DNA of 33,675 bases, taken from assembly GCA_024226555.1 (NCBI GenBank), contig JAAELO010000651.1:1-33675 (forward strand). Reading direction: 5' to 3'. The position numbers and the translations under genes were made by a program. Of the stretch, positions 1,531-28,103 are shown piece after piece. Under the pieces are notes generated by a model. The model saw only the letters and a program-made list of their open reading frames with translations, was not told the origin of the DNA and did no database searches. This stretch comes from Desulfobacterales bacterium (GTDB taxonomy: Bacteria; Desulfobacterota; Desulfobacteria; Desulfobacterales; JAAELO01). Within the stretch, counting starts at the first letter, position 1; each line of letters starts with the position of its first letter.

Positions 1531-1652
1531 GGGAATCTCTAATAACTGATCTTTTTGCGAAACACAGCGTTATAACAAAAATAAAACTGTAGTAAAATCA
1601 ACCCGTTATTTTTTGTTATGCCTTGTTTTTCATCAAAAATTCTAATTATTAG
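1531..1652 (+). repeat. MITE-like element, plus orientation, right tip missing
   Basis: It begins GGGAATCTCTAATAACTGAT and contains the family core CTGTAGTAAAATC. It ends in AATTATTAG but lacks the final AGATTCCC. The left and right halves are imperfect reverse complements (for example TAACAAAAA near 1573 and its complement near 1610), so the whole unit can fold as one long hairpin. It sits 24 bp upstream of the LysE-type gene, so any promoter of that gene is in or beyond the element. Confidence 0.85.
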
Positions 1653-1675
1653 TAAAAACCTAATAGGGAGTAAGA

Positions 1676-2308
1676 ATGATGTCATTTGAATTCTGGTTTT
1701 TTTTCTGTGTTACAGTTTTTGTTGCATCTATTATTCCAGGGCCAAGCATGTTGCTTGCTCTAACCCACGGAATTAAATATGGATTTAAAAGAACTTTTGC
1801 AACCGCCTTTGGAAATGTTGCAGCAACATTTATTCAGGCTCTGATTTCCATATCCGGCCTTTCAGCAATTCTAATTGCTTCAAGTACAATTTTTACCATT
1901 ATTAAATGGATTGGTGCTTTATATCTAATATATCTTGGTATAAATATATTTTTATCGAAAAAGACAATTGATGTGGTAAATAATGACCGTGAAATTCCTA
2001 AAATTTCTCTTAGAAAGATGTTTATACAGGCATTTTTTGTAGCTTTTGGGAATCCAAAAGCCATTGTTTTTTTTACGGCACTTTTTCCCCAGTTTATAAA
2101 CCTTGAAGAATCAACACTTCCTCAATTTACTGTTTTGATGATCTCGATGTGTGTTATCGCCTTTTTTTGTATGCTGATTTATTCATACTGTGGAAAAAAA
2201 GTTACAGACCTTTTTTCAAAAAGGTCATTTTCCGGATTTCTAAATAAGATAACAGGATTATCTTTTGTTGCAGCAGGATTAGGAATCCTCTTGCAGAACA
2301 ATGAATGA
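1676..2308 (+). CDS. LysE/RhtB family amino-acid exporter
   Basis: A 210-residue, very hydrophobic inner-membrane protein with about six membrane segments. The N-terminal region has the family signature I-I-P-G-P-S-M-L (residues about 20-27), followed by G-x-K-x-G and A-F-G-N, then Y-L-I-Y-L-G around 82-87 and F-G-N-P-K-A about 123-128. LysE/RhtB proteins export amino acids or homoserine lactone-like compounds by proton antiport; the substrate cannot be told here. GGGAG at 1665-1669 supports the ATG at 1676 (a second ATG follows at 1679). The 3' end overlaps the convergent Nudix gene by 30 bp. A dispersed repeat copy occupies the upstream region. Confidence 0.9.
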   Translation: MMSFEFWFFFCVTVFVASIIPGPSMLLALTHGIKYGFKRTFATAFGNVAATFIQALISISGLSAILIASSTIFTIIKWIGALYLIYLGINIFLSKKTIDVVNNDREIPKISLRKMFIQAFFVAFGNPKAIVFFTALFPQFINLEESTLPQFTVLMISMCVIAFFCMLIYSYCGKKVTDLFSKRSFSGFLNKITGLSFVAAGLGILLQNNE

Positions 2309-2815
2309 TCCGGATTCACAATATCCGGATTCCATAAACAGATCAAATTCATGGATAAAATTTGGTGTGAATTTACCTGAGTATTTTGTTTCCTCTATCT
2401 CTTTAAGAGTAAAGAAGCGCCCCTCTTCGATCTCATTTTCACAAACTTTTATCACACCATCAAATACACATAGAAACGTTGATACATATTCGGACTCAAT
2501 TTCATTTGTATGAAGATATTTATGAATAAATTCAATTGAATCAGTCTCTATATATAGTTCCTCTTTCATCTCTCTAAAACCAGCCTCTTCATATGTTTCA
2601 CCTGAATCCAGGTGACCACCAACTGAAGTATCCCATTTTCCGGGCTGTATATCTTTATTTATAGACCTTTTTTGAAGAAAAAGTTCACCTTTTGAATTAA
2701 AAACAAGAATATGAACAACTCTATGGATCAAATCTGGGTTGCCATGAACCTCACTTCTTGCTGCTATTCCAGTAACTACATCATTTTTATCAACTATATC
2801 AAAAATCTCTTCCAT
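2279..2815 (-). CDS. Nudix hydrolase, YfcD/IPP-isomerase-like
   Basis: The 178-residue product has a complete Nudix box G-x5-E-x7-R-E-x-x-E-E-L, here from G-H-L-D-S-G-E-T to R-E-M-K-E-E-L at residues about 66-87, which binds the catalytic metal and hydrolyses nucleoside-diphosphate-linked substrates. The start (F-D-I-V-D-K-N-D-V-V-T-G) and H-R-V-V-H-I-L-V-F are typical of the YfcD branch, which is related to isopentenyl-diphosphate isomerase. The substrate is unknown. AGGAG at 2826-2830 lies 9-10 nt before the ATG. A short repeat element begins 23 nt upstream of the start codon, immediately behind the ribosome binding site. The gene converges on and overlaps the LysE-type gene. Confidence 0.88.
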   Translation of the reverse strand: MEEIFDIVDKNDVVTGIAARSEVHGNPDLIHRVVHILVFNSKGELFLQKRSINKDIQPGKWDTSVGGHLDSGETYEEAGFREMKEELYIETDSIEFIHKYLHTNEIESEYVSTFLCVFDGVIKVCENEIEEGRFFTLKEIEETKYSGKFTPNFIHEFDLFMESGYCESGSFIVLQEDS

Positions 2816-2838
2816 ATCTCATATCTCCTAATAATTCT

Positions 2839-2902
2839 GGGAACCTCTAAAAACTGGAGTTTTGATTGAAATATAACGCTAATAAAAGCTTTAGAGATTC
2901 CC
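2839..2902 (-). repeat. Short MITE-like element with 4-bp target duplication TTCT
   Basis: A 64-bp copy: GGGAACCTCTAAAAACT at the left and TTTAGAGATTCCC at the right, with the arm motif GTTTTGATTGAAAT but without the central core. Exact TTCT flanks it at 2835-2838 and 2903-2906. It separates the Nudix ribosome binding site from any upstream promoter. Confidence 0.8.
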
Positions 2903-3157
2903 TTCTGAAGGGATGTACCTGTTAATGTTTTTTGAGTCAAGTCTTTCGTTTGTATAAAGGATGTTTTTTATCGTTAAAAACAAAAAAAATTTCAAACTAC
3001 AAATCACTGTAATGATTAATAAATTTTTCTACATATCTTTAAACAGGCTTTATTGATTCCTGATTAAACATTATTTGTTTTTTTAATTGTTAGTTATCCA
3101 TGTAAAGGTTGAATATTATTCATAATACCCATATCATTAGTATGCAAATTCTATTTA
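2903..3157. other. AT-rich intergenic stretch, nothing recognised
   Basis: No reading frame with a ribosome binding site, RNA gene or strong hairpin was seen between the two repeat copies. TTTTTT and AAAAAA runs are frequent. It may hold the divergent promoters of the Nudix and SH3b genes. Confidence 0.4.
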
Positions 3158-3287
3158 GGGAACCTCTAATAACTGATCTTTTTGCGAAATACTGCTTTTT
3201 CAAAAAAAACAACTGTACTAAAATCAACCCCATTGTTTTTTTCTCAGCCTTGTATTTCATCAAAAATTCTAATTATTAGAGATTCCC
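3158..3287 (+). repeat. Full-length MITE-like element with target duplication TTTA
   Basis: A complete 130-bp plus-orientation copy from GGGAACCTCTAATAACTGAT to AATTATTAGAGATTCCC. The 4-bp direct repeat TTTA flanks it at 3154-3157 and 3288-3291. The inner arms share GAAATAC and its complement GTATTTC at matching distances from the ends. It ends 59 bp before the SH3b gene. Confidence 0.9.
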
Positions 3288-3346
3288 TTTACTGATCTTC
3301 AAAATCACGAGATAAGATTCAAACTTAAAAAAAAGAGAAAAATAAA

Positions 3347-4189
3347 ATGAAGAAAAGAACAGTTTTTTTTATTTTAATTGTATTTTTTTTACTAAATGTA
3401 AATACAGCAATATCAAAAAACGGATCGAAACTAATGATTTCTGATATTGATAATCATGTAAATATTATAAACTCTCTTACTCTTTCAAAATATAATATAA
3501 TAACAAATAACTTTAAAAACTGGCAGGTAAACAGCTTTGAAGGAAGTGGATATCACGAAGCGAATATTTACCTCGATAATAAAAAAAGAGTTCGTAAACT
3601 AATTTACAGAGCTATGTTTCCTGAAGATGGAGAGTATATAATAAAGTACTTTAGAGAGGACGGTAGTTTATGTAAAATGATATACCAGATAAATTCAAAA
3701 GATGAAATTCCCATTGAATATATGCCAAAAAAGATTCATGACCCTAATAGTTACTATTATTATATATCAAATGGAAACATATATTTTCAGTACGATAAGC
3801 CTATAAAACTGGACACTGTTACTATCGTTTTTGGAAAATCCAGGAATTTAATTATCAAAAATATTATCCCTCTGAATAGAATCAATGTTTTTCATTTAAA
3901 TGCAAGCGAAATTGTTGAGAATCTTGAATTGGATCAATATAAACCTGTTTCCTATTGCAAATTTTCTGGTCCACATAAAAATGATACGACAGTTGTAAAT
4001 ATTAATAATGTCCTTGTTCGTAAAAAACCTGTTAATAACAGTAAAGTTATAAACACTCTTCACTCCTTAAGTAGTGTAAAGATTCTTTCATCAACTGAAA
4101 ATGAAAAGTGGTATAGAGTTAGCTTTGAGAACCAGATTGGTTTTGTCGATTCATCTCTGCTTGAACCTGTGGAAAAGTTGATACATTAA
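3347..4189 (+). CDS. Secreted protein with C-terminal SH3b domain
   Basis: The 280-residue product starts with a signal peptide (MKKR, then a Phe/Ile/Leu core to about residue 22), so it is exported. Residues about 215-275 form a bacterial SH3 (SH3b, SH3_3-type) domain: V-N-I-N-N-V-L-V-R-K-K-P, then V-K-I-L and W-Y-R-V-S-F-E-N-Q-I-G-F-V. SH3b domains commonly bind peptidoglycan or other envelope ligands. The middle (30-210) has no recognised domain; it contains repeated tyrosines (Y-Y-Y-Y near 138). The ribosome binding site is weak (AAGAGA about 10 nt before the ATG). It looks monocistronic between two non-coding gaps. Confidence 0.75.
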   Translation: MKKRTVFFILIVFFLLNVNTAISKNGSKLMISDIDNHVNIINSLTLSKYNIITNNFKNWQVNSFEGSGYHEANIYLDNKKRVRKLIYRAMFPEDGEYIIKYFREDGSLCKMIYQINSKDEIPIEYMPKKIHDPNSYYYYISNGNIYFQYDKPIKLDTVTIVFGKSRNLIIKNIIPLNRINVFHLNASEIVENLELDQYKPVSYCKFSGPHKNDTTVVNINNVLVRKKPVNNSKVINTLHSLSSVKILSSTENEKWYRVSFENQIGFVDSSLLEPVEKLIH

Positions 4190-4505
4190 GCAGATACCCG
4201 TCTGATAACTTGATATTAGTTTTGAGTGTCACCTAAGAACTTATTTTTAAGATAAACAGATCTCTTTTTTACTATTTTAAACTTTTGTTTTACTAAAGTA
4301 AAAATCTATAAAGTACTATAAATATAAATAAAATATTAAATTACTATCTTTTCCTTTAAAAATTTCCCTATTTGGAAAAAGCTTAATCTTGTTTTTAGTA
4401 TTTAATTATATTACAATTTACAAATAAATCTAAACAAATAAAAAGCCTCAATCAATTAACAGACCTCAAATTTTTTGATTACTATTGGTTGTAAAAAAAG
4501 TTTTT

Positions 4506-6377
4506 ATGAATATTTTCCGAAAAACAGTTAAATCAAGTACTCTTTCTAAGAAATTACTTTTCTACGTGGTTTTATGTAGCTCCTTCTTTACAATATTATC
4601 CACAGCATTCCAGCTATTTTTAGATTATAAAAGCGATGTATTGAATATAAACAAAACAATGGAATTTATAGAAGAAAGCTATATTGAAGCCATTACAGCA
4701 AGCGTATATGAAGTTGATACAAGTCAGGTTAATTTGCAATTAAACGGGATTCTAAAATTGCCTGATATTGTGTATCTGGAGGTAAAAGATAGTAACAGTG
4801 AGACGACTTACCGTTATTCTGCCGGGGACCCTGAAGCTAAGAGAGATTTTGGTAAGAACTTTCCACTTGTTCACATTCGTAAAACCAAAGAGAAAGAGTT
4901 TGTAGGATATCTCAAAGCTTATGCCAGTTATGAAAATATATATAAAAGACTGTGGGAGAGAGCTACTGTTGTGATTATGACCAATGGTATTAAAGTTTTT
5001 TTCGTTTCAGTAGTACTTTTTGTGTTATTTCAGTCTTTTGTCACTAAGCATCTTGTAAGACTTTCTACTTATGTCCAGGATATGGATCTTAAAACCCTTG
5101 ATAATCCTATTGAACTTGAAAGAGGCACTCTTAGTTATGATGAAGACGAACTTGATTCAATAGTTAAATCTCTAAATAGTATGAGACTTAAAATGAAAAT
5201 GGATATTTCACAAAGGGATTTAGCTGAAAAGGAACTTGAAAAGTTAAAAAACTATCTAACTGATATTTTAAACTCAATGCCCTCTGTTGTTATCGGTATA
5301 GACAATGCGTGTGTTGTTACGCAATGGAATCATAAAGCTGAAGAAATGACAGGTTTTTTAAGTAACGAGGTGATTGGAAAAGAGCTTCAGGAAATATTTC
5401 CGGGAATTGTGAGTGAGGAGTTTCTTACAAAGGTTACTGAAGGGAAGCCCCATAAAAGGTTCAGGACGAAAAGAGTGGAAAAAGAAAATATTTTCTATGA
5501 AGATATATCATCTTATCCTCTTCTGTCCTCAAAAAGTGTGGAAGGTGCCGTAATCAGAGTTGATGATGTAACTGAGCAGGTAAGGATGGACGCAATACTT
5601 GTTCAAAATGAAAAAATGATGTCAGTTGGAGGGTTAGCCGCCGGTATCGCTCATGAGATTAATACTCCCCTTGCTATAATGATGCAATCTTCACAAAATA
5701 TTTTAAGGAGGGTATCCGAGGACTTACCAGGAAACATAGAAGCTGCAGAAAGCTGTGGGATTTCAATGGATGATATTAGATGTTACATGGAAAAACGTAA
5801 CATTCTTAGAGCAGCTCAGGATGTTAGAGACTACGGAGAGAAAGCTGCGAATATTGTTTCAGATATTCTAAAATTCAGCCAGTTAAGTAATGAAACTATG
5901 GAAAAGGTTGAATTAACAGAACTTCTTGATCAAGCTATTGAGCTTGCATCCCACGATTATAACCCAACAAAGAGTTATGATTTTAAAAAGATTGAAATTG
6001 AACGTGTTTATGAATCTTCTGTTACTGCATCAATTATTAAAATTGAAATTGAACAGGTTATACTGAATATATTAAAAAATGGTGCCTATGCCATGGGCGA
6101 AAAAAATGGAATAACTCCACAATTTGTTATCAAATGTTTTAAAGATAATAGTTTCGCTGTTATTGAGATTGAAGATAATGGTACAGGAATTAATGAAGAT
6201 ATTGCAAACAGAATATTCGAACCCTTTTATACGACTAAACCAGTTGGGGTAGGTACTGGTTTAGGACTATCAGTATCTTATATGATTATTACAAAAAATC
6301 ATGGTGGTACGCTGGAAGTTTCCTCAAATCAGAACGGAAGTAAATTTACTATTAAACTACCTGATAACCGGATTTAA
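4506..6377 (+). CDS. Membrane sensor histidine kinase, PAS-HisKA-HATPase
   Basis: From the ATG at 4506 (623 residues): membrane segments at about 17-38 and 156-176 enclose an extracytoplasmic sensor domain of about 115 residues. A HAMP-like linker (177-235), a PAS domain (245-365, with M-P-S-V-V-I-G-I-D) and the kinase core follow. The phosphoacceptor is H383 in A-G-I-A-H-E-I-N-T-P. N-box N-I-L-K-N-G, G1 box D-N-G-T-G (D557), F-box F-E-P-F-Y-T-T-K and G2 box G-T-G-L-G-L are intact, so it should be an active autokinase. The region after the H-box carries an insertion of about 35 residues. A TTG at 4485 gives 7 more residues; neither start has a clear Shine-Dalgarno. Only 40 bp separate it from the hybrid kinase gene, so the two probably form one operon and one phosphorelay. 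The signal is unknown. Confidence 0.92.
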   Translation: MNIFRKTVKSSTLSKKLLFYVVLCSSFFTILSTAFQLFLDYKSDVLNINKTMEFIEESYIEAITASVYEVDTSQVNLQLNGILKLPDIVYLEVKDSNSETTYRYSAGDPEAKRDFGKNFPLVHIRKTKEKEFVGYLKAYASYENIYKRLWERATVVIMTNGIKVFFVSVVLFVLFQSFVTKHLVRLSTYVQDMDLKTLDNPIELERGTLSYDEDELDSIVKSLNSMRLKMKMDISQRDLAEKELEKLKNYLTDILNSMPSVVIGIDNACVVTQWNHKAEEMTGFLSNEVIGKELQEIFPGIVSEEFLTKVTEGKPHKRFRTKRVEKENIFYEDISSYPLLSSKSVEGAVIRVDDVTEQVRMDAILVQNEKMMSVGGLAAGIAHEINTPLAIMMQSSQNILRRVSEDLPGNIEAAESCGISMDDIRCYMEKRNILRAAQDVRDYGEKAANIVSDILKFSQLSNETMEKVELTELLDQAIELASHDYNPTKSYDFKKIEIERVYESSVTASIIKIEIEQVILNILKNGAYAMGEKNGITPQFVIKCFKDNSFAVIEIEDNGTGINEDIANRIFEPFYTTKPVGVGTGLGLSVSYMIITKNHGGTLEVSSNQNGSKFTIKLPDNRI

Positions 6378-6417
6378 GAAACATTGTAAATAATAATCTC
6401 CCGGGGGATTTAAAAAA

Positions 6418-8994
6418 ATGATAGGGACGGGGAAAAAACTTTTAACAATAGATGATGAAGAAGGGTTAAGACAAAGCATTCGGGATTATTTTGAAGATTA
6501 CGATTTTGAGGTCTATGATGCAGAAAATGGTGAGAAGGGTATCGATCTGTTCAGAAAAATATTACCCGATGTGGTACTTATAGATCTTAGGATGAAAGGT
6601 TTAAATGGCCTTGAAGTGGTAAGAATTCTACACGGGGAAGCACCTGAAATTCCTCTTATTGTAGTCTCAGGAACTGGAATTATTGAAGATGCAATAGCAG
6701 CTATCAGAGAAGGAGCATGGGATTATGTGGCAAAACCAATAATGGATATGCTGGCTCTTTCTCATACGATTGAAAGAGCATTCGAAAAAGCTGCTTTAAT
6801 TAAAGAGAATAAACGATATCAAAATCAGCTTGAAATACTGGTTAAGGATCGAACAATAGAGTTACAGAATGCAAATCAGGAACTTTATAATTTAAACAGA
6901 AAACTACAGGATATAGTTGAAACAACATGTGCTCTTCAGGGGTTTGACAGGATTGATGCATTTGGAAAATTTCTTCTGGAAAATTTTGGCAAACACCTGA
7001 ATGCAAGCGGTGGGTCGATCTATCTATGTGAAAATGAAGGATTAAGATTGATCCATTCTCTTGAATCTGCAGTGGTACCAGGATTTATAAAATACCCGTT
7101 AGAGGAGAGATCCATTCTTAAAAGAGCTCTAAGAACAGGTGAGCCACAGATAACAGAGTCTGATGAAAACAAGCATCTGCTTGAGATACTTGGTATTAGT
7201 ATGTATAAAGAAGGGTCATCTCTTGTTTTTCCACTCACAGACAGTAATAGAAAAAATGTTGGACTTTTAACACTTCATATAGAGAGAAAACCTCATTTTA
7301 CAGAGCAGGATAAAGAGATCGGTTCGATACTTTCCTCCTTTAGCAGCGAGGCTATAAGGGCTATAAATTTTACTGAAGATATTCAAAAAAGAGCTCAATT
7401 ATTCAGAATTCTTGCAAAAGGAATTGGTGGATCAACGGATCAGGAGCTTTTAAACAGTATCGTTACTTCATGCGTATCTATTTTTGAAACAGAATATGCT
7501 CTTCTTGGTAGGTTAGAGGATGGAAAAATTCATACTGAGGCCTATATCGAAAATGGAAAGTTTGATTCCTTATGCTTTGATATTGCAGGAACACCTGCAG
7601 AAACAGTTCTCAAAGAGGGTAGTAAACTCTATTCGGGAAATTTAATAGAGTTGTTCCCGGAAGATAAGATTCTTTGCGATATTGAGATAGAGAGTTATAT
7701 TGGCTCAGCAATTATTAACAGTAAAGGTAAAACAATCGGTGTTTTATGCACATTTTCAAAATACCCTATAACTTTTCCAGATTACTGGAGTGAAATACTT
7801 GAATTAATGACATCAAGATATTCTTCTCTTGTAGATCGTGTAAAAGCGGACAATGTCCAGGCACAACTTAGGGGCAATCTTCAACAGGCACAGAAAATGG
7901 AAGCAATAGGAACTCTGGCAGGCGGTATTGCCCATGATTTTAATAATATATTGTCTCCTATTTTAGGATACAGCGAAATGATTCTTTACTCTATTTCTGA
8001 AGATGACAAATTTAAAAATGATATAGAACAGATTAAACATGCTGGCGTGCGAGCAAAAGAACTGGTTCAGCAGATTCTTTCATTTAGCAGACAAAAGGAG
8101 ATTAAAGCAAAACCAATTGAGATTCAGATAATTGGTAGAGAAGTTGTTCGTATGCTTAAATCAACACTACCTGCAACTATCAAAATAGAGCAGAATATAA
8201 AAAATGACTGTTTACCTGTTGAGGCCGATCCAACACAGATCCATCAGGTAATAATGAATCTTTGTACTAACTCTTTCCATGCCATGGAGGAAAAGGGAGG
8301 TATTTTGACAATCGTAGTGGAAAATACTGAGGTTGTTAATGAACATTTTGAAGCAACTAAATTTGTTAAAATCTTCATAAAAGATACTGGTTCTGGTATA
8401 GATCAGGAAGTTATTGATCGAATTTATGAGCCATACTTTACAACTAAAAAAGAGGGTAAAGGAACCGGATTAGGACTTTCTGTCGCCCATGGTATTGTTT
8501 CATCCTTCAATGGATTTATAAACATTGAAAGTGAAAAAAATGTTGGTTCAAGCTTCACAGTTTATCTTCCGGTTGTTGAAAAACATCAGGTTGAAACAAA
8601 AGAGGAAGAAAAAGAGATTGAGCAGGGTTCTGAAAACATAATGATTATAGATGATCAAATTCCCATACTTAAAGTTACAGGAAATGTTCTTAAGGAAATT
8701 GGATATAACATAACAAGTTTTTCAGACCCATTATCTGCATACAAAGCATTTGAAGAAGATCCTGATAAATATGACCTGATAATTACAGATCAGACAATGC
8801 CGGACCTAACAGGAGATAAACTTGCTGAGAAAATATTTAAAATAAGAAAAGATTTTCCGATTATTCTGTGTACAGGGTACAGCTCAATTATGACTAAACA
8901 AAAAGCGGGTAAATTAGGTATCAAGGCTTTTATGCTAAAACCACTTGAAATGAATGAGTTAGCGTCTACCATCAGGAAGCTATTAGACTCTTAA
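6418..8994 (+). CDS. Hybrid kinase: REC-GAF-GAF-like-HisKA-HATPase-REC
   Basis: An 858-residue soluble protein. The N-terminal receiver (1-120) has acidic D12-D13, phosphoacceptor D56, the S-G-T turn and K106. A coiled coil (about 120-165) leads to a GAF domain (165-320) and a second GAF-like region (325-475). HisKA has H506 in G-G-I-A-H-D-F-N-N, with N-box M-N-L-C-T-N-S, G1 D-T-G-S-G, and G2 G-T-G-L-G-L. The C-terminal receiver (740-858) has D745-D746, D791 and K841. Receivers at both ends with no DNA-binding output suggest a relay hub: the upstream kinase may phosphorylate the N-terminal receiver. GGGGG about 10 nt before the ATG is the ribosome binding site; it lies within the small palindrome CCCGGG. 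Its stop codon overlaps that of the convergent TruA-like gene within TTAA. Confidence 0.92.
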   Translation: MIGTGKKLLTIDDEEGLRQSIRDYFEDYDFEVYDAENGEKGIDLFRKILPDVVLIDLRMKGLNGLEVVRILHGEAPEIPLIVVSGTGIIEDAIAAIREGAWDYVAKPIMDMLALSHTIERAFEKAALIKENKRYQNQLEILVKDRTIELQNANQELYNLNRKLQDIVETTCALQGFDRIDAFGKFLLENFGKHLNASGGSIYLCENEGLRLIHSLESAVVPGFIKYPLEERSILKRALRTGEPQITESDENKHLLEILGISMYKEGSSLVFPLTDSNRKNVGLLTLHIERKPHFTEQDKEIGSILSSFSSEAIRAINFTEDIQKRAQLFRILAKGIGGSTDQELLNSIVTSCVSIFETEYALLGRLEDGKIHTEAYIENGKFDSLCFDIAGTPAETVLKEGSKLYSGNLIELFPEDKILCDIEIESYIGSAIINSKGKTIGVLCTFSKYPITFPDYWSEILELMTSRYSSLVDRVKADNVQAQLRGNLQQAQKMEAIGTLAGGIAHDFNNILSPILGYSEMILYSISEDDKFKNDIEQIKHAGVRAKELVQQILSFSRQKEIKAKPIEIQIIGREVVRMLKSTLPATIKIEQNIKNDCLPVEADPTQIHQVIMNLCTNSFHAMEEKGGILTIVVENTEVVNEHFEATKFVKIFIKDTGSGIDQEVIDRIYEPYFTTKKEGKGTGLGLSVAHGIVSSFNGFINIESEKNVGSSFTVYLPVVEKHQVETKEEEKEIEQGSENIMIIDDQIPILKVTGNVLKEIGYNITSFSDPLSAYKAFEEDPDKYDLIITDQTMPDLTGDKLAEKIFKIRKDFPIILCTGYSSIMTKQKAGKLGIKAFMLKPLEMNELASTIRKLLDS

Positions 8995-9859: not shown

Positions 9860-10020
9860 GGGAATCTCTAATAACTGCCCTTTGACTGAACGGCTGCGTT
9901 ATTCAAAATAAAAACTGTAGTAAAATCGGCTCGTTATTTATTTCTCAGCAGAGATTTTATAAAACTAAAGCTTTTATAAGCGTTATATTTCAATCAAAAT
10001 TCTAGTTTTTAGAGGTTCCC
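9860..10020 (+). repeat. Long MITE-like element with target duplication TATA
   Basis: A 161-bp plus-orientation copy starting GGGAATCTCTAATAACTGC and ending TTTTTAGAGGTTCCC, flanked by exact TATA at 9856-9859 and 10021-10024. Its right arm holds an extra segment of about 34 bp (about 9951-9984, including TTTATAAAACTAAAGC) that the 130-bp copies lack. The element ends 40 bp before the dsdA start. Confidence 0.88.
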
Positions 10021-11388: not shown

Positions 11389-11518
11389 GGGAATCTCTAA
11401 TAATTAGAATTTTTGATGAAAAACAAGGCATAACAAAAAACAACGGGTTGATTTTACTACAGTTTTATTTTTGTTATAACGATGTATTTCGCAAAAAGAT
11501 CAGTTATTAGAGATTCCC
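11389..11518 (-). repeat. Full-length MITE-like element with target duplication TTAA
   Basis: A complete 130-bp copy in minus orientation (core GATTTTACTACAG), from GGGAATCTCTAATAATTAG to CAGTTATTAGAGATTCCC. TTAA is duplicated at 11385-11388 and 11519-11522. Its sequence is nearly the exact reverse complement of the copies at 1531 and 27754, so these three probably spread recently. It lies 35 bp after dsdA. Confidence 0.93.
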
Positions 11519-11633: not shown

Positions 11634-11679
11634 ATGATTTTGAAAATAAAACGACAACAACGTTTATTTTTTATAAATG

Positions 11680-11720
11680 ACCTGTTTGTCAAACCATGAA
11701 TAAGAAACGGAACGTTTTAT
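11680..11720. repeat. CCTGTTTGT...AAAC unit, copy 1
   Basis: CCTGTTTGTCAAACCATGAA followed by AAGAAACGGAACGTTTTATA. Related direct copies lie at 12920 and 13567. No link to the MITE-like family was seen. Confidence 0.5.
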
Positions 11721-12746: not shown

Positions 12747-12919
12747 ACACAGAAAGAATGCTTGTTACTCCTGAAAATATTTTTCAAATGTTTTTCTTAA
12801 AATAAGAGTCGGGAATCCATAGTAAACCGTGTCATTCCTGCGGAGGCGGGGTCTAAGAGCTTTTACGACTTAGTCATTTTGGTATGTAATTACAATTTGG
12901 TCATGGGGTTATTTAAAAA

Positions 12920-12951
12920 CCTGTTTGTTAAACCTTGAATAAAAAACTAAA
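12920..12951. repeat. CCTGTTTGT...AAAC unit, copy 2
   Basis: CCTGTTTGTTAAACCTTGAA then AAAAAACTAAAG, in direct orientation with the copy at 11680. Confidence 0.5.
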
Positions 12952-13070: not shown

Positions 13071-13199
13071 GGGAACCTCTAATAATTAAAATTTTGGATG
13101 AAATACAAGGCATTTCAAAAAATAACGAGCCGATTTTATTACAGTTTTTTTTGGAAATAACAATGTATTTCGTCAAAAGAGAGGTTATTAGAAATTCCC
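13071..13199 (-). repeat. Full-length MITE-like element with target duplication AATA
   Basis: A 129-bp minus-orientation copy from GGGAACCTCTAATAATTAA to GGTTATTAGAAATTCCC, with core CCGATTTTATTACAG. AATA is duplicated at 13067-13070 and 13200-13203. It belongs to a sub-group with the copies at 13602 and 30434, in which the inner arms read ATTTC(C)AAAAA. Confidence 0.9.
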
Positions 13200-13531: not shown

Positions 13532-13566
13532 CAGTAATTATTACTTATAAAGTACTTCTTTAAAAA

Positions 13567-13601
13567 CCTGTTTATAAAACATTGATCAAAAAACGTTTTA
13601 A
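13567..13601. repeat. CCTGTTT...AAAC unit, copy 3
   Basis: CCTGTTTATAAAACATTGAT then CAAAAAACGTTTTAA. It is interrupted at its right end by the MITE-like element at 13602, whose target duplication TTAA is its last four bases. Confidence 0.45.
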
Positions 13602-13729
13602 GGGAACCTCTATAATTAGAATTTTGGATGAAATGCAAGGCATTTCCAAAAATAACGAGCCGATTTTATTACAGTTTTTTTTGGAAATAACAAAGTATTT
13701 CGCCAAAAGAGCAGTTATTAGAGATTCCC
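13602..13729 (-). repeat. Full-length MITE-like element with target duplication TTAA
   Basis: A 128-bp minus-orientation copy from GGGAACCTCTATAATTAG to CAGTTATTAGAGATTCCC, flanked by TTAA at 13598-13601 and 13730-13733. It is very close in sequence to the 13071 copy. Both arms carry TTTTGG and ATTTCCAAAAA at matching positions, so the hairpin is well paired. Confidence 0.93.
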
Positions 13730-13980: not shown

Positions 13981-14028
13981 GAGAGCCTCTAAAATTATAG
14001 TTTTGATTGAAATACAGCTTTAGCTTTA
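13981..14028 (-). repeat. Partial short MITE-like element
   Basis: GAGAGCCTCTAAAATTATAG followed by TTTTGATTGAAAT resembles the left part of the 64-bp copy at 2839. Its right end is missing where the next element begins, which suggests nested insertion. Confidence 0.55.
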
Positions 14029-14100
14029 GGGAATCTCTAAAAACAGTTTTTTTCATAGTAACGAAGTCGTTCGGTTGAAAGACGGTTATTAGAGATTCCC
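14029..14100 (+). repeat. Short (72-bp) MITE-like element
   Basis: From GGGAATCTCTAAAAACAG to GACGGTTATTAGAGATTCCC. The inner arms are TTTTTTTCATAGT-type and diverged from other copies, with the core lost. No clear target duplication is seen. It ends 39 bp before the first solute-binding gene. Confidence 0.7.
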
Positions 14101-15593: not shown

Positions 15594-15756
15594 ACATTGA
15601 ACAGGTATCTCTTTTTTTAATTATTTTTAAATCAACTTTTTCTTCCATTATTCCTCCAGGAATTTTTTTGTTATACATCACGACTTCAGTTTCATTTATA
15701 AAACAGATCAGTTAATAGAGGTTTCGATAAAAAACAATCATGCATTATTTTATTAG

Positions 15757-15902
15757 GCATCTCAAAACTATGACAGAAATCACCTTATCATATTGCATAA
15801 TCATATCAAATATTTAATAAGCTAATATGGTTTAGAGACTCTGTTTATATTATTTTTTTTAGACTTGAATTTTAATCAAAAATCAAGTTATTAGAGATTC
15901 CC
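15757..15902. repeat. Decayed MITE-like element, right end intact
   Basis: The right end AAGTTATTAGAGATTCCC (15885-15902) is clear and is preceded by TTTTAATCAAAAAT. The left part (from GGCATCTCAAAACT at about 15757) is strongly diverged. The element lies 22 bp past the end of the cyclase gene, between convergent transcription units. Confidence 0.5.
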
Positions 15903-21025: not shown

Positions 21026-21136
21026 GGAAATTTCTAATAACTCACTTTTGAGTAGATTACTTCGCAACTAAAAAAATAAGGCTAAGGGAACCTGATAATT
21101 AGAATTTTGATTGAAAGGAAGTTATTAGAGATTACC
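21026..21136. repeat. Composite decayed MITE-like element
   Basis: Two left ends occur: GGAAATTTCTAATAACTCAC (21027) and GGGAACCTGATAATTAGAAT (21086). A single right end AGTTATTAGAGATTACC closes at 21136. The inner unit (51 bp) is a mini-copy consisting of the two tips only. The composite starts 2 bp after the sppA stop codon and may act as its terminator. Confidence 0.6.
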
Positions 21137-21602: not shown

Positions 21603-21732
21603 GGGAATCTCTAAAAACTGCTCTTTATCCGAAATACTGTGTTGAAAGAAAAAGAAGAAGCCTAAAGACATTGGTTATTTTTTCCTCTCGCCTTGTATTT
21701 CATAATAAATTTATAGTTTTTAAGAGGTACCC
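21603..21732 (+). repeat. Diverged full-length MITE-like element
   Basis: A 130-bp plus-orientation copy from GGGAATCTCTAAAAACTGC to TTTTAAGAGGTACCC. The core is diverged (AAGAAGAAGCCTAAAG). The flanks AATA and AGTA differ by one base, consistent with an aged target duplication. It begins 13 bp after the scaffold gene. Confidence 0.8.
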
Positions 21733-22846: not shown

Positions 22847-24646
22847 ATGGCACAACAAATTGCAGATACAAGAGATGTTGATTTTGTTCTTAATGAGCAA
22901 TTCAAGGTAGAAAAATTTTCTGAACATGAGAAATTTGCAGACTTCAATAAAAAAACCATTAATATGATTGTTAAAGAAGCAAGGTCACTTGCAATTAAAG
23001 AGATCCTGCCAACACAATCAGATAAAGGATGTGAATTTAACGCTGGTGAAGTAAAAGTACCAGAGGAGTTTCATAAACCTTTCAAGCTATTCATGGAAGG
23101 TGAATGGTTAGGAATGAGTGATTCCCCTGAGTATGGTGGTGGAGGTATGCCAAGAACAGTATCTCTTGCTGCAAGTGAGTACTTTATTGGTGCAAATGTT
23201 TCTTTCATGCTTTATCAGGGACTTTCCCACGGTGCCATGAAAATGCTTGAAGAGATAGGAACTGACGAACAGAAAGAGATCTATCTTAAGAAGATGTACT
23301 CAGGTGAATGGGCAGGAACAATGCTTCTTACTGAAGCTTCCGCTGGTTCTGATGTTGGCGCACTTGAATCTACTGCAAAGAAAAATGATGATGGGACATA
23401 CAGCATAACAGGTAACAAAATTTTTATCTCGGGCGGGGAGCAGGATCTAACTGATAACATTATCCACCCTGTTCTTGCAAGAATCGAAGGTGCTCCAGCC
23501 GGGACAAAAGGAATTTCACTATTCCTTGTACCAAAATACAGAGTAAATGAAGATGGCAGCCTGGGTGAATTTAATGATGTGGTTTGTACCGGTATTGAAG
23601 AAAAAATGGGTCTTCATGGAAACGCTACATGTTCACTTACTTTAGGTGGAAAAGGAAATTGTGTTGGAACTCTTTTAGGTGAAGAGAGCAAAGGGATGAA
23701 GGCCATGTTCCTTATGATGAATGAAGCTAGAATGTTAGTTGGGCTTCAGGGATTTGCCAATGCAACAACTTCATATATGTATGCACTAAACTATGCAAGG
23801 GAAAGAGTTCAGAGTGCATTCCTTCTTAAGCCAAAAGAAGGTGGTGTTCCAATCATCAAACACCCTGATGTAAGAAGACAACTTCTGATAATGAAATCCT
23901 ATGTTGATGCAATGAGAAGTATAATCTACTATTCAGGCACCTGCTTTGACACTATCGCAACCTCTGATAATGAAGAAGAGATCCAGAAATGGAAGGGAAT
24001 GCTTGAGATTCTCACACCAATCATTAAGGGTTATTGTACAGATAAGGCATGGGAAGTATGCAGCCATGCTGTTCAGGTTTATGGCGGTTACGGATATTGC
24101 CAGGACTTTCCTGTTGAGCAGCTTTTAAGAGATTCAAGAATTTTCATGATCTATGAAGGAACAAACGGTATTCAAGCCATGGACCTTCTTGGAAGAAAAC
24201 TTGGTCTAAACAAAGGAAAATCTTTTATGGATTTCCTTGGTGAGATCAAGAAAACAATTGATGAAGCTAACGGAATTGACTCACTTAATGGTCTTGGTTC
24301 AAAACTTGAGACTATCTATAATAAATATACTGAACTTGTTGCGACCATGGGTAAAACAGCAATGAGTGAAGATGTCCTTGCTGCTTTTATCCATGCGACT
24401 CCACTTCTTGAGATAACAGGTGATCTTACAAGTGCCTGGATGCTACTTTGGAGAGCAATAACAGCTACAAAGGCTATGGAAGGTAAAGTTAAAAAGAAAG
24501 ATATGCCTTTCTACGAAGGTCAGATTAAAACAGCTGAGTTCTTCATTAGTTCAATGCTACCTGTTACATCAGGTAAAATTGATTCAATAAATGTAATGAA
24601 TACAGCAGTTACGGATATGTCTGAAGAGGCATTCGGTAGTAAGTAA
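22847..24646 (+). CDS. Acyl-CoA dehydrogenase, long form with C-terminal domain
   Basis: A 599-residue FAD flavoprotein that makes the first alpha,beta-oxidation of acyl-CoA. Family marks: G-M-S-D-S-P-E-Y-G-G-G-G-M near 85-97, M-L-L-T-E-A-S-A-G-S-D-V-G for flavin binding, M-G-L-H-G-N-A-T-C, and the catalytic Glu in I-Y-E-G-T-N-G-I-Q-A-M-D-L. About 150 residues follow this Glu region, as in the long (about 600-residue) enzymes of desulfobacteria and pseudomonads. The ATG at 22847 is preferred to the TTG at 22841 because GAAGGGG ends 10 nt before it. A TetR gene upstream and a thioesterase gene downstream point to acyl-CoA metabolism. Chain-length specificity cannot be read. Confidence 0.95.
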   Translation: MAQQIADTRDVDFVLNEQFKVEKFSEHEKFADFNKKTINMIVKEARSLAIKEILPTQSDKGCEFNAGEVKVPEEFHKPFKLFMEGEWLGMSDSPEYGGGGMPRTVSLAASEYFIGANVSFMLYQGLSHGAMKMLEEIGTDEQKEIYLKKMYSGEWAGTMLLTEASAGSDVGALESTAKKNDDGTYSITGNKIFISGGEQDLTDNIIHPVLARIEGAPAGTKGISLFLVPKYRVNEDGSLGEFNDVVCTGIEEKMGLHGNATCSLTLGGKGNCVGTLLGEESKGMKAMFLMMNEARMLVGLQGFANATTSYMYALNYARERVQSAFLLKPKEGGVPIIKHPDVRRQLLIMKSYVDAMRSIIYYSGTCFDTIATSDNEEEIQKWKGMLEILTPIIKGYCTDKAWEVCSHAVQVYGGYGYCQDFPVEQLLRDSRIFMIYEGTNGIQAMDLLGRKLGLNKGKSFMDFLGEIKKTIDEANGIDSLNGLGSKLETIYNKYTELVATMGKTAMSEDVLAAFIHATPLLEITGDLTSAWMLLWRAITATKAMEGKVKKKDMPFYEGQIKTAEFFISSMLPVTSGKIDSINVMNTAVTDMSEEAFGSK

Positions 24647-24659
24647 AAAATTTGAATAT

Positions 24660-24697
24660 GTTATAAACAGAGATTTTTGACTGTCTCTGTTTATAAC
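24660..24697. terminator. Strong hairpin between convergent genes
   Basis: TTATAAACAGAGA and TCTCTGTTTATAA are perfect 13-bp arms (14 with the outer G-C) around a 10-nt loop. It sits between the convergent dehydrogenase and thioesterase genes and probably stops transcription from both sides, although the U-tract is short. Confidence 0.75.
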
Positions 24698-24733
24698 TGT
24701 TCTTTTCAGAAAAAACCAAACTCCTCTAAAAAA

Positions 24734-25117
24734 CTAATCCTTATTTGTATTAGGAACAAATATCGAATAATTCCCATTGGCTTTTGCAATAAGGTTGTCT
24801 TCACAGAAGATCTCTGATTCGAGATTTGCAACTGATTTTCCCCTGTTCAAAACCTTTGTTAAACAAATGACTTTTCCCGATGTTACGGCTTTATAATAGT
24901 TGATCTTGATCTCTATTGTTGCACAAAGTTCACCTTTTTCTAAGCCAGGGTATAGTGCTGCGCCCATACCAGTATCTGCCAACGAATAAATAACCGCGCC
25001 GTGAATCACACCATGGGGATTAAAAAGTTTTTCACTGGATTCTAATGAACACCTGCTTTGACCGTTTTTCATATTTTCAATTTTAAGACCTGTTAAATCT
25101 GCATAGGGATGATACAT
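24734..25117 (-). CDS. PaaI-type hotdog thioesterase
   Basis: A 127-residue protein with the PaaI/4HBT hotdog signature N-P-H-G-V-I-H-G-A-V-I-Y-S-L-A-D (residues 33-48), where Asp48 or the equivalent position is the usual catalytic acid. A later strand T-I-E-I-K-I-N-Y-Y-K-A and G-K-S-V-A-N-L-E-S-E-I match the family. It hydrolyses acyl- or phenylacetyl-CoA type thioesters to free CoA. It lies convergent to the acyl-CoA dehydrogenase with a strong hairpin between them. The ribosome binding site is weak (AGAGAGAG). Close homologues vary widely in substrate. Confidence 0.88.
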   Translation of the reverse strand: MYHPYADLTGLKIENMKNGQSRCSLESSEKLFNPHGVIHGAVIYSLADTGMGAALYPGLEKGELCATIEIKINYYKAVTSGKVICLTKVLNRGKSVANLESEIFCEDNLIAKANGNYSIFVPNTNKD

Positions 25118-25164
25118 TTAATGAGCTCTCTCTTTATAATTTAATTTCAGATTGTTATAAAAAT

Positions 25165-25258
25165 TTAATGGATTCCATGATTTTTTAATATTTTGTTATA
25201 CACACCATTACTTTTAACCATATCAATTCCTTTGTCAAAGTCATCTCTTACTTTTATA
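25165..25258 (-). pseudogene. Out-of-frame 3' remainder of the solute-binding gene
   Basis: On the minus strand the frame V-R-D-D-F-D-K-G-I-D-M-V-K-S-N-G-V-Y continues for about 30 residues to a stop at 25165 in a frame +1 to that of the upstream CDS. It matches the C-terminal pattern of the paralogue at 26833 (I-N-K-A-I-N-K-I-K-A-K-G-I-Y-S-Q-I-L). A total length of 757 nt is one more than 252 codons, consistent with a single-base insertion. Confidence 0.75.
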
Positions 25259-25921
25259 TAGTTTTTTAGTTTTTTTTGAAATAACTAAATATATTTTATC
25301 TGTTTCCAAAGCAGGATACACAGGCTCAACCTGACTCGCATATTCTTTAAGTTCTTTATTAAGGTAAAAATTGACAGAGTCTTTGAAATCAAGGAAAAGA
25401 TCTATGCGATTCAAAACTAACTTTTTAATATTTTGTTGTGTCGTTGGAACAGCTTCAATATTAAAGCAGTTATAACTTTTAAAACGTTTGATATAAAATG
25501 AACCTGCAAATATTCCAATTCGTAAAGGGCACAGATCCTTAATTTTATTAAATTTAAATTTGTGCCCTTTTCTTGCAAAGAAATGGACTGAACTTTTCCA
25601 GTTATACCTGGGATAAGAGAAGTATTCTATTCGTTTTTTAGTATATGAAGCCCCAATTAGTGCATGAAAATAACCTTCTTTGGTCATTTTTACTGCTCTT
25701 CTCCAGGGGACAAATAAAATTTTTGTATTGTATCCAGCTTTTTTGAATGCTTCCATGCATATCTCTGATAAAAATCCACCGTTTTTTAATTTTTTATCTG
25801 TATATGGGGCCCAGTTCGTAGTTGATATTATAATTGTTTTGTTTTCAGCAAAGACTTCAGGAGACAGGTAGAGAACTGTAACGATTACAATCAGGGTTTT
25901 TTTAAGCATTAAATCCTCCAT
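25241..25921 (-). CDS. Family-3-like solute-binding protein, frameshifted near the 3' end
   Basis: The 226-residue frame starts with a signal peptide (V-F-A-E-N cleavage near residue 26; the start may be Met5) and has T-T-N-W-A-P-Y-T-D, L-S-E-I-C-M-E-A-F, F-V-P-W-R-R-A and G-A-S-Y-T-K-K-R near the middle, as in the paralogues at 14140, 14898 and 26833. The annotated frame ends in a Lys-rich stretch within two A-runs (8 and 6 A on the coding strand at about 25261-25277); the next frame continues to 25165. One A less would restore a 251-residue protein like the sibling of 248. So it is a frameshift by mutation, slippage or sequencing error. GGAGG just before the start is a good ribosome binding site. 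Confidence 0.8.
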   Translation of the reverse strand: MEDLMLKKTLIVIVTVLYLSPEVFAENKTIIISTTNWAPYTDKKLKNGGFLSEICMEAFKKAGYNTKILFVPWRRAVKMTKEGYFHALIGASYTKKRIEYFSYPRYNWKSSVHFFARKGHKFKFNKIKDLCPLRIGIFAGSFYIKRFKSYNCFNIEAVPTTQQNIKKLVLNRIDLFLDFKDSVNFYLNKELKEYASQVEPVYPALETDKIYLVISKKTKKLYKSKR

Positions 25922-25973
25922 ATCTCAATTAAAATATCCCAAATGATAAATAGCTTTTATATTAAGGAAATTT

Positions 25974-26078
25974 TTAGTTACATAGTGAATTCTCTTTAAG
26001 GAATTCAAAGTCTGTTTTTGCGATCTGTTCACAATAATCTCTGTAGTGCTTTTCAAAAATTTCAGAGACTTTAAACAT
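25974..26078 (-). pseudogene. Possible 34-residue gene remnant
   Basis: On the minus strand an ATG opens M-F-K-V-S-E-I-F-E-K-H-Y-R-D-Y-C-E-Q and ends after 34 codons. The composition (acidic/basic helix, balanced codons) looks like true coding sequence, but the AAGGGA lies too close to the ATG, and no family is recognised. It could be the start of a lost gene or a small peptide. Confidence 0.3.
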
Positions 26079-26130
26079 TTCCCTTAAGTTATAGGTCAAA
26101 TATATGGTCTTTTATAACAGAGATTCAAAT

Positions 26131-26155
26131 GAAAAAAAACCCCGTATGGGTGATA
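26131..26155 (-). terminator. Possible intrinsic terminator of the receiver gene
   Basis: On the minus strand ACCC-atacg-GGGT is followed by a run of eight T. The stem is short (4 bp) but well placed 41-65 bp past the stop of the CheY-like gene. Confidence 0.5.
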
Positions 26156-26195
26156 ATTAGAAGGTTTTAAAACGGTATGAGTTTGACTTACATTT

Positions 26196-26600
26196 TTATA
26201 CTTTGTTTTTTGGGGAAAGTTCATTAACATATTTGGCTATGATGTCATGACTCAGTGGTTTTAATACATACCTGTCACAACCGGATTCAATACAATCTTT
26301 AACTGTGTCAGAATCAGAGTTTCCTGTTACCATTATTATTTTTGTTCTTTTCTCAGCCGGGATTTCTTTTTTAGCTTCATATTTGCGGATTTCTCTTAAT
26401 ACATCAACTCCTGAAGGTTCACCCATTGAGATATCAAGCATGATCAGATTGAAAGGCTTGCTTGTTTTTTCAGCATAAAAAAAAGCCTGTAAGGCTTCTT
26501 TTCCGTTAGATACTGCAGAGCAAACTCCATATTTTTTCATGATGCTTTTCATGGCGTTTCGGATTAATTTTTCGTCATCAGCTATTAGAATTTTGTTCAC
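26196..26600 (-). CDS. Stand-alone CheY-like response regulator
   Basis: A 134-residue single receiver domain. The acidic pair D8-D9, phosphoacceptor D56 (L-I-M-L-D-I-S-M-G), T92 (M-V-T-G-N-S) and K114 (V-L-K-P-L) are all present. There is no output domain, so it must act by protein contact, for instance on a flagellar motor, a kinase or another enzyme. An insertion (K-Y-E-A-K-K-E-I-P-A-E-K-R) lengthens the loop before beta-4, a trait of many CheY-like proteins in Desulfobacterota-type genomes. AGGGAG lies about 8-10 nt before the start. It sits between two solute-binding genes on the same strand, but with gaps of over 230 bp on either side, so linkage to them is uncertain. Confidence 0.9.
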   Translation of the reverse strand: MNKILIADDEKLIRNAMKSIMKKYGVCSAVSNGKEALQAFFYAEKTSKPFNLIMLDISMGEPSGVDVLREIRKYEAKKEIPAEKRTKIIMVTGNSDSDTVKDCIESGCDRYVLKPLSHDIIAKYVNELSPKNKV

Positions 26601-26832
26601 TTTTTTCTCCCTGAATCAATTTAATGAACCAAGCCATATGGTTTTTATCAACAGGAAATCATTTTTTATATCATTGATATATTGCTTAGGTTCTATCTGT
26701 GGCTCCACATTTTCACTTTCATCTATAACTATAAAGATATAATTAGAAAAAGTGAAGCATCATTTTTTTTTATTTCATAATTATTCTAACTAAATCTATG
26801 TTCTTTATTTTTCTCTATAAATTCTCTGGAAA

Positions 26833-27579
26833 CTATTCTTTCAAATTATATTTTATTAGAATTTGCGAATAGATGCCTTTAGCTTTGATTTTATTAATTG
26901 CTTTGTTGATACGGTTTGTTATCAATGCTGCTTTTGGGTACGTTCGGGAAATCATGAGTCGAAGATTGTCGCTGCTAAAAGGTTTTTTAACTGTAGCGAA
27001 TTTATTCAAATCTTCAGGGAATAAAGTTTTGATTAATTCCCAACCAACTAACTCATTGGTAGCCAGGAAATCAAATCTTCCTGCATGAAGCTTCATTATA
27101 CCAATTTTATCGGTATAACCATAATCTATACTTAGTCCTGCTTCTTTAAACGTTTCTTTATACCAATAGCCGAAAGTCCCCCCTATTGCATAAGGCTTAA
27201 GATCTTCTAATTTTTCCCATTTTATTTTTGATTTTATTCTCTTTTTTAAATAGAAAAATTTGTTTTTAGAGTTTGCTAATTCATCACTGAAATCAAATAT
27301 TTTTTTTCTTTCATCAGTCATCTTATAGGGAAATGCGGCATAGGCTATTCCTTTTTTTAAATTATGCTCACACCTCAACCAGGGATAGAATCTATACTCA
27401 ACATCGAAATCGGATTCTTTAAATACAGCAGATACAATTTCTGTAAAAAAACCATATCCATTCATTTTTTTTGATGTGTATGGCGCCCACTCTCCAGTTA
27501 CGAGAACAACTTTCTGTTTAGCTAAAATGTTTGAAGATAGAAAGAGTAAAAAACATACAAATATTAATAAATTTTTCAT
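26833..27579 (-). CDS. Periplasmic family-3-like solute-binding protein
   Basis: The 248-residue product has a signal peptide (M-K-N-L-L-I-F-V-C-F-L-L, cleavage near I-L-A-K, residue about 21), then V-L-V-T-G-E-W-A-P-Y-T-S-K-K, G-F-F-T-E-I-V-S-A-V-F, V-E-Y-R-F-Y-P-W-L-R-C and a C-terminal helix I-N-K-A-I-N-K-I-K. It is the fourth protein of this type in the window and shows what the frameshifted 25241 gene looked like when whole. The motif W-x-P-Y and P-W-x-R near residue 60-70 unites all four. GGGA about 6-8 nt before the ATG supports the start. As with the others, no transporter genes are adjacent; it may instead feed a sensor. Confidence 0.87.
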   Translation of the reverse strand: MKNLLIFVCFLLFLSSNILAKQKVVLVTGEWAPYTSKKMNGYGFFTEIVSAVFKESDFDVEYRFYPWLRCEHNLKKGIAYAAFPYKMTDERKKIFDFSDELANSKNKFFYLKKRIKSKIKWEKLEDLKPYAIGGTFGYWYKETFKEAGLSIDYGYTDKIGIMKLHAGRFDFLATNELVGWELIKTLFPEDLNKFATVKKPFSSDNLRLMISRTYPKAALITNRINKAINKIKAKGIYSQILIKYNLKE

Positions 27580-27629
27580 TTTTATCCCAATCAGCTCCTG
27601 GATTTACTAAGAAAATTTTAATTAATACG

Positions 27630-27685
27630 TGAAGCCTCTAAAAATTTGATTTTTGCTTTAATTACAGATTATAAAAGCTTTTTAT
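27630..27685. repeat. Left-end remnant of the MITE-like family
   Basis: GAAGCCTCTAAAAATTTGAT followed by TTTTGCTTTAATTACAG and ATTATAAAAGCTTTTTA resembles the left arm of the long sub-type. No right end is seen. Confidence 0.4.
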
Positions 27686-27753
27686 TTAATAAAGTTTACA
27701 GTTATTTTTTTCTCGTATACTCTTTTGTTTTGTTATTGTTTAAAACAACATAA

Positions 27754-27881
27754 GGGAATCTCTAATAACTGATCTTTTTGCGAAACACAGATATATCAAA
27801 AATAAAACTGTAGTAACATCAACCCGTTGTTTTTTGTTATGCCTTGTTTTTCATCAAAAATTCTACTTATTAGAGGTTCCC
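27754..27881 (+). repeat. Full-length MITE-like element with target duplication ATAA
   Basis: A 128-bp plus-orientation copy, GGGAATCTCTAATAACTGAT to TTATTAGAGGTTCCC, nearly identical to the copy at 1531 and to the reverse complement of 11389. ATAA is duplicated at 27750-27753 and 27882-27885. A loose right-end fragment (TTTTTAGAGATTCC) follows at 27906-27919. Confidence 0.93.
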
Positions 27882-28024
27882 ATAAGTAATTCAGACAAAA
27901 GGTAGTTTTTAGAGATTCCAACAGGTTAGACAATGCCATAGAGTAACACATTTTTAGGTTTATAGACAAGTAAATGTCTATAAAAAACAGATACTTCTAT
28001 ATATTTAAAAAGAGAATTATTAAA

Positions 28025-28103
28025 GGGAGCCTCTAATAATTAGAATTTTGGATGAAATAACACAGTTTCGCCAAAAGAGCAGTTATAGTTATTAGAGATT
28101 CCC
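28025..28103 (-). repeat. Internally deleted MITE-like element overlapping a gene end
   Basis: A 79-bp minus-orientation copy with GGGAGCCTCTAATAATTAG on the left and GTTATTAGAGATTCCC on the right; most of the core is gone, though GGATGAAATAACACAG and TTTCGCCAAAAGAG remain. Its right tip forms the last three sense codons and the stop of the PP-loop gene. Confidence 0.85.

Follow-up and report, generated by a model that had tools for sequence, protein, structure and literature searches.

A hairpin core common to miniature transposons with different ends in the Desulfobacterales

The window analysed here, a stretch of 33,675 nucleotides from a Desulfobacterales bacterium (contig JAAELO010000651.1, assembly GCA_024226555.1), harbours dispersed repeats that we confirm as non-autonomous transposons, or miniature inverted-repeat transposable elements (MITEs). 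They appear to represent one end type of a superfamily of elements of about 140 bp (130 bp here), each forming a single long imperfect hairpin whose inner core recurs in other genera of the order under different termini. We consider it fairly likely that the core is a structured, probably transcribed hairpin which rides several transposases through end exchange, any host function being hypothetical. A bolder proposal, which sees in the core a transposon-independent mobile RNA module under selection that has lasted the age of the bacterial order by trading ends among at least eight systems, is advanced tentatively, as plausible and just short of favoured.

Mobility of the window family and its parent transposase

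The window's genome assembly (G000) comprises 7.69 Mb in 904 contigs and contains the exact motif GGGAAYCTCTAATAA 1217 times (605 + 612), with none for the reversed-pattern control, which places the family well outside the window. Joining facing ends less than 420 bp apart formed 141 units in 805 kb of G000, with a modal length of 128-130 bp and terminal repeats of 15 bp. Identical 4-bp flanks, most commonly TTAA, TATA and TTTA, border 72 of the 141, against a mean of 8.6 and a maximum of 19 in 1000 shuffles of the right flanks. Among 139 units the longest flank identity was 4 bp in 71; another 7 matched over 3 bp and none over 5 bp. A comparison of 73 full-length copies gave 24 pairs with more than 97% identity, and the flanking 4-mers differ in 14 of the 15 closest pairs listed; near-identical copies at differing flanks therefore point to recent spread. 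Short non-coding sequence with terminal inverted repeats, a target duplication of fixed length and many dispersed copies identify these repeats as MITEs, and their ends, exact 4-bp duplications and genome-wide copy number support the view of the first-pass annotation that they are MITE-like and moved in trans. The outer 15-17 bp would be the terminal repeats that a transposase recognises.

An nhmmer search retrieved 194 elements in the 805 kb (2.9% of the sequence) and 139 in another 719 kb (2.3%). Since these stretches were picked because they held hits (216 exact motifs per Mb in the first and 146 in the second, against 158 in the genome), the total was scaled to the genome-wide motif count, which gives about 1,450 elements, of which about 960 are near full length.

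The parent insertion sequence (IS), left unnamed by the earlier annotation, can now be placed at family level from related genomes of the same order. Elements of the same plan occur in G001 and G009; a plain DNA search matched five genomes, G020 and G043 by one short hit each without recognisable ends. Four contigs of G001 break about 130-135 bp inside an element in which the first part of a transposase gene comes after a type-a end (consensus below), and G001:C63 holds an uninterrupted copy of 337 aa in an element flanked by TTAA on both sides. This transposase carries DDE_Tnp_1 and DUF772 domains and scores 280.9 bits against NCBIfam NF033581 (IS5_4; cut-off 140). Among 58 genomes, IS5_4 exceeded its cut-off only in G001 and in G009 (168.1 bits), and type-a ends adjoin the IS5_4 transposases of both. 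Ends were examined in 23 of 44 related transposase loci in other genomes, and eight of the 23 have GGG-starting ends (one on a single side only) about 1.25-1.3 kb apart. The window family resembles these IS5-type (NF033581) elements in GGGnnCCTCTAAAAA/TAA-type ends and readable 4-bp duplications (TTAA at L152 and L164, TGTA at L154; also L144), and thus agrees with the IS in ends and in length of target-site duplication (TSD). It differs from them in that they are autonomous, about 1.25-1.3 kb long and devoid of the core: a covariance model (R2) built from 52 copies of 28 genomes, with no G000 copy in training, detected no core at E <=1 in 44 loci (244 kb) around IS5-type transposases, that of G001 included. 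Derivation of the interior from the IS by deletion is therefore not indicated by these 44 loci. Type-a ends would be recognised in trans by an IS5-type transposase that duplicates 4 bp of AT-rich target.

A transposase bounded by family ends was thus seen in related genomes and not in G000. NF033581 has no match in G000, where the shortest contigs inspected are about 3.2 kb and a collapsed 1.3-kb copy could be missing. Six G000 genes match PF01609, none with family ends in the available flanks; two PF13701 hits both lie below cut-off, and the G001 transposase as query returned nothing. A GLFDW codon-pattern hit at a single place in G000 was discarded, its reading frame being unlike a transposase. 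As to the window itself, the earlier statement that it has no transposase with such ends holds for the proteins scanned, which represent 10 of the 35 open reading frames (ORFs).

Some further observations concern these elements and transposases. Some G000 contigs have their ends a few to 20 bases away from MITE copies (C11:104377-104505, C39:52264-52392, C437, C459, C429), so the repeat helps to fragment the assembly and the actual copy number may be higher. A 563-bp unit (G000:C47:11685-12247; L067:11685-12247) has both terminal repeats and TATA on each side, and encloses what by eye appears to be a broken piece of a GGDEF-type gene, a possible capture of host sequence. A candidate 1.5-kb element at C47:19148-20623 proved to be two MITEs flanking host ORFs. 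At position 13 of the terminal repeat the paired ends tend to agree (TAATAA/TAATAA in 22 and TAAAAA/TAAAAA in 4 of 31 G000 copies), as if two transposase specificities or an end-to-end correction existed. G048, with a contig C1 of 4.07 Mb, is IS-rich: its genome has 102 DDE_Tnp_1 matches, and dozens of these are identical in length (390 aa) and score.

A common core under eight types of ends

A covariance model (R1) built from copies of G000, G001 and G009 found the core in 33 of 146 genomes of the order, representing 28 of 104 genera (G000 included); 22 candidates were scored per genome, so that counts per genome are lower bounds. Among the matches listed, most of those outside G000 are 139-144 bp long. 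When one locus from each of 30 of the 33 genomes was compared, the inner ~100 nt were common and the termini differed; this internal hairpin, missed by the first-pass annotation, is the part common to different genera. R2, which had seen no G000 copy, recovers eight window copies at E 2.6e-12 to 2.4e-8, plus weaker ones.

The loci of these 30 genomes contain 79 core matches, 78 of which were given ends, and target duplications were tabulated for 75 (three below 45 bits were omitted). The 75 copies comprise eight end types whose duplications measure 3, 4, 5 or 6 bp by type: a, GGGnnCCTCTAAWAA (4 bp in 10/12); b, GTGTCCATCCAGAAA (6 bp in 16/32); c, GAGACCTTTGAAAAA (5 bp in 13/19); d, GAGCrTGTTTGAAAA (3 bp in 2/2); e, GAGGCTGTCCGAGAA (CTAG in 2/3); f, TAGAAGCCATCTCAAAA (0/3); g, GTGCCCGAACGAAAA (6 bp in 1/2); and h, GAGGCAGTTTCAAAA (4 bp in 2/2). 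The remaining copies of each type have no duplication of at least 3 bp. Two end types occur within one genome in G037 (b, c) and G080 (c, h). Identity between end types is 75% in the core and 56% in the left end, as compared with 85% and 94% within types (L262 omitted). This suggests that the middle is the part kept and that the ends vary.

The relation of ends to cores was followed on a core tree of 51 rows (again without L262) and 100 columns, few for the number of rows, with end types named before the tree. The eight types need 13 changes on this tree, the minimum possible being 7, and the starred branches alone force three changes for b and two each for a, e, f and g. A single origin was rejected by the approximately unbiased test for b (p 4.9e-5), e (p 0.0165) and, weakly, c (p 0.045). 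Locus L282 combines e ends with a core whose nearest neighbours are b cores (86%, as compared with 77% for its own type), and L279 has b ends on a core closest to a g core (90% against 79%). With end type and core lineage re-sorted in this manner, cores seem to have taken on new ends, and new transposases with them. Exchange might come about when one hairpin element inserts into another and the old ends are then lost, or through template switching between hairpins.

The strongest competing explanation, which we nevertheless regard as unlikely, is that these are ordinary IS5-derived MITEs inherited within the order, their ends drifting along with IS5-superfamily transposases and their core being young or a DNA palindrome, with no end exchange at all. 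Such drift would account for end types that align almost column by column at 56% identity, for lengths of mostly 139-146 bp outside G000, and for a second end type, f, that also bounds an IS5-like transposase frame (L217 in G001); it is harder to reconcile with target duplications of four different lengths, with dissimilar cores that carry the same ends and similar cores that carry different ones, for which the rejected single origins of b, e and weakly c speak, and with the paired end types of G037 and G080.

Hairpin structure, orientation and the weighing of explanations

Representative elements fold end to end. Pairing was assessed in a set (A4) of 52 of the 78 end-assigned copies, from 28 genomes, chosen by score (>=60), length (130-148 bp) and number (<=3 per genome), without G000 and G008. 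In A4, 91.4% of cells pair and two-sided changes are present at 37 of 53 base pairs. The covariation score is 0.355, as against 0.149 +/- 0.006 after shuffling (0 of 500 shuffles reach it) and 0.056-0.121 in slid-partner controls; the structure was derived from A4 itself, which favours it over slid versions on cells paired, and the excess over shuffles is partly relatedness. G.U exceeds A.C by 147:24 in the core (18 columns vs 5) and by 74:36 in the ends (6 columns vs 7). An excess of G.U points to RNA, because a hairpin acting only as DNA would show no difference if mutation treats the strands alike. The R-to-L strand is the more stable in 51/69 copies of G000, 4/6 of G001 and 13/14 of G009. 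The unpaired motifs CAAGG / ACGCAG and AACC..AGG are conserved and unlike one another. Judged from sequence, selection probably acts on an RNA copy of the R-to-L strand, where compensatory changes preserve the pairing of the inner ~100 nt.

The placement of copies relative to genes was examined in G000, where genes were called by a simple longest-ORF rule. Five of 114 full copies in the 805 kb lie inside a called ORF; the overlaps counted number 12 at a gene 3' end and none at a 5' end. Between tandem genes the RNA-like strand is sense in 53:21 cases in a first set (52:20 under a slightly different neighbour definition, which was not the one used) and 28:14 in a second, independent set, giving 81:35 when pooled (p 2.3e-5). 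The bias persists for genes opposed to the local GC skew (25/34) or to the local majority strand (27/38) and when stratified by contig (z 3.1). In divergent pairs the orientation is sense to the nearest gene in 25/32.

Long palindromes are substrates of template switching that copies one arm onto the other, and the covariation might be a by-product of this quasi-palindrome correction during DNA repair, with no RNA function. We consider this somewhat less likely than drifting IS5-derived MITEs: while the joint change at position 13 of both G000 terminal repeats (UA 22, AU 4, unpaired 4 of 31) is what such correction would leave, the unpaired motifs have stayed conserved and mutually unlike, and the bias of G.U over A.C in the core lacks a counterpart in columns at the ends. 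REPIN/RAYT systems make no target duplication and use a Y1 transposase. Both a REP/REPIN-type family, with a tyrosine (Y1) transposase as its mover, and a regulatory RNA gene at a fixed place would share the high copy number, hairpin form and mostly intergenic placement, and either is highly improbable given target duplications of defined length (4 bp here; no search for a Y1 transposase was made), DDE-type terminal repeats and dispersed near-identical copies whose flanks differ.

The reading that we prefer, a transcribed hairpin core carried by exchanged ends, has several observations weighing against it. Regarding RNA, the G.U excess rests largely on few columns, and the fold z-scores behind strand stability include the terminal repeats. 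RNAalifold supports just 11 outer pairs in G000 (31 copies) and 10 in a 55-copy set; the reason is the shortening of the G000 form, which lacks much of the apical part and fits badly into an alignment with the other copies. The second tandem set of G000 is modest by itself (p 0.044), the nearest gene is sense in just 8/22 convergent cases, and tandem pairs of other genomes show no bias (14:14), so that the sense orientation holds for G000 only. Regarding ends, duplications are seen in only half of the type-b copies and in no type-f copy; a single clade is not rejected for g (p 0.136); the core tree, with its few columns, has long branches leading to the two f rows and to a single d row; and the nearly gap-free alignment of end types at near-constant length fits gradual end divergence too. 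The link to the parent is imperfect, G008 having a type-a element and no IS5_4 match among the 58 genomes. Among the matches listed for PF01609 loci of 15 genomes, ends of type b, c, d, e, g or h were not found on both sides of a transposase; one end scan of these loci allowed 4 mismatches and was too permissive. Type-h ends at L333, L350 and L357 bound no transposase.

Should the core indeed be transcribed, its likeliest role would be that of a read-through RNA hairpin which is harmless to the host message, or stabilises or processes it. Insertions near genes could then be tolerated, and the element may persist through whichever transposase is present.

Elements of the window, known relatives and meaning

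Sites matching GGGAATCTCTAATAA with <=3 mismatches number 31 in the window, against a mean of 2.26 and a largest value of 6 in 100 dinucleotide shuffles, and a repeat search gave units of 123-130 bp, in either orientation as first described and <=98% alike. The intact form is about 130 bp with two unlike arms. All ten positions named by the first-pass annotation hold an element (Table 1), two of them internal-deletion forms and one with a degraded end; seven are two-ended elements of 128-161 bp. The same 4 bp stand at both flanks in 7 of the 10, the exceptions being those at 21603, 28025 and 1531. Four further degenerate pieces are present, and the earlier placement of copies holds, since they lie between genes or touch gene 3' ends.

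Table 1. Elements of the family in the window (strand is R-to-L, the RNA-like strand)
Positions	Strand	Element	Flanks	Matches and remarks
1531..1659	-	element, right terminal repeat degraded		nhmmer 86.9 bits; R1 110.9 bits; R2 E 2.4e-8
2839..2902	+	internal-deletion form, 64 bp	TSD TTCT/TTCT	
3158..3287	-	full element	TSD TTTA/TTTA	R2 E 7.1e-12
9860..10020	-	full element with additional internal stretch, 161 bp	TSD TATA/TATA	R1, R2
11389..11518	+	full element	TSD TTAA/TTAA	R1, R2
13071..13199	+	full element	TSD AATA/AATA	R2 E 2.6e-12
13602..13729	+	full element	TSD TTAA/TTAA	R1, R2
13981..14100	+	degenerate element		terminal repeats at 14029 and 14100
15755..15902	-	weak degenerate element		R1 33.4 bits, E 0.0099
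21026..21136	+	degenerate element		strands match about equally well
21603..21732	-	full but diverged element	AATA/AGTA	R1, R2
27754..27881	-	full element	TSD ATAA/ATAA	R1, R2
28025..28103	+	internal-deletion form, 79 bp		right repeat overlaps 3' end of ORF 28092-29147 (-)
30434..30571	+	element, right terminal repeat unrecognisable		R1, nhmmer

A sub-type, to which the window elements at 9860-10020 and 30434-30571 and other G000 copies belong, has a nested palindromic insert, TATAAAACTAAAGCTTTTATAA, near the middle. A separate 39-bp direct repeat (D9) that is not in MITE copies lies at window 11670-11708, 12909-12947 and 13556-13594. At window 1-88, a family terminal repeat is broken at GGGAATCTCT^AATAA by a unit of about 75 bp with small hairpins, truncated by the contig start. 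This end insert also occurs in G000 at C821:4593, C821:21784, C47:47909, L084:18932 (C819) and C214:427, making six near-identical copies with one insertion position and at least four different MITE interiors attached. It is either a unit targeting the family end or a mobile end module, and, joined to these interiors, may be a case of end exchange. The end GGGAATCTCTTCTAAG, considered as that of a second foldback family, was dropped, being this kind of insert within the terminal repeat.

The earlier surmise that the family may be undescribed stands within the reach of our searches. Rfam, searched with 10 sources at E <=1, gave as sole match a tRNA beside one element; plasmids and phages gave nothing with one copy as query, and viral contigs nothing for two exact patterns, results which say little on distant forms. 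The open-access literature searched, outside which most subscription papers lie, has no description of the element family, nor have the excerpts consulted of PMC4853749, PMC9296519, PMC2229807, PMC5896051, PMC10969869 and PMC4133298, from which the following comparisons are drawn.

ERIC/IRU are 127-bp intergenic repeats of enterobacteria with a long stem-loop transcript and copy numbers reaching the hundreds, a reported 711 in Photorhabdus luminescens (PMC10969869); their effect on mRNA stability depends on orientation (PMC2229807). Compared by description, the window family is like them in its size of about 130 bp, intergenic position, hairpin and high copy number, and unlike them in its repeats of 15-17 bp, eight end types, duplications of 3-6 bp and hosts; the 7-bp terminal repeat and TA ends of ERIC (PMC2229807) are absent from it. 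The Correia/NEMIS elements of Neisseria are MITEs of about 107 and 155 bp with a hairpin transcript, proposed RNase III processing and 24-bp repeats with TA ends (PMC2229807); they share the plan of a small mobile hairpin MITE and differ in end features and in having, in that excerpt, no core described under other ends. Coxiella QMITE1 and QMITE2, with 45 and 78 copies in one strain, have terminal and direct repeats, a core and a link to small RNA (PMC5896051), and are similar, again by description, in terminal repeats and core, with no end exchange described in that excerpt. TIMEs, mosaic non-autonomous elements derived from Tn3, have common ends and exchanged cargo (PMC4133298), thus keeping their ends and varying the middle, whereas the window superfamily keeps the middle and varies the ends. 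By analogy with ERIC or Correia elements, the window family may act as small mobile hairpins that become part of transcripts, although the end features of those elements are absent from it.

The element load of this genome is high, about 1,450 copies against the 711 of Photorhabdus ERIC, which no bacterial figure in the excerpt of PMC10969869 exceeds. A covariance model of the core can be used to find such elements elsewhere. Bacterial MITEs are usually viewed as decaying remnants of one IS, their ends kept and their middle drifting. With the middle kept and the ends changing, one can test whether the unit of selection may be a small module of structured RNA or DNA, able to outlive its transposase.

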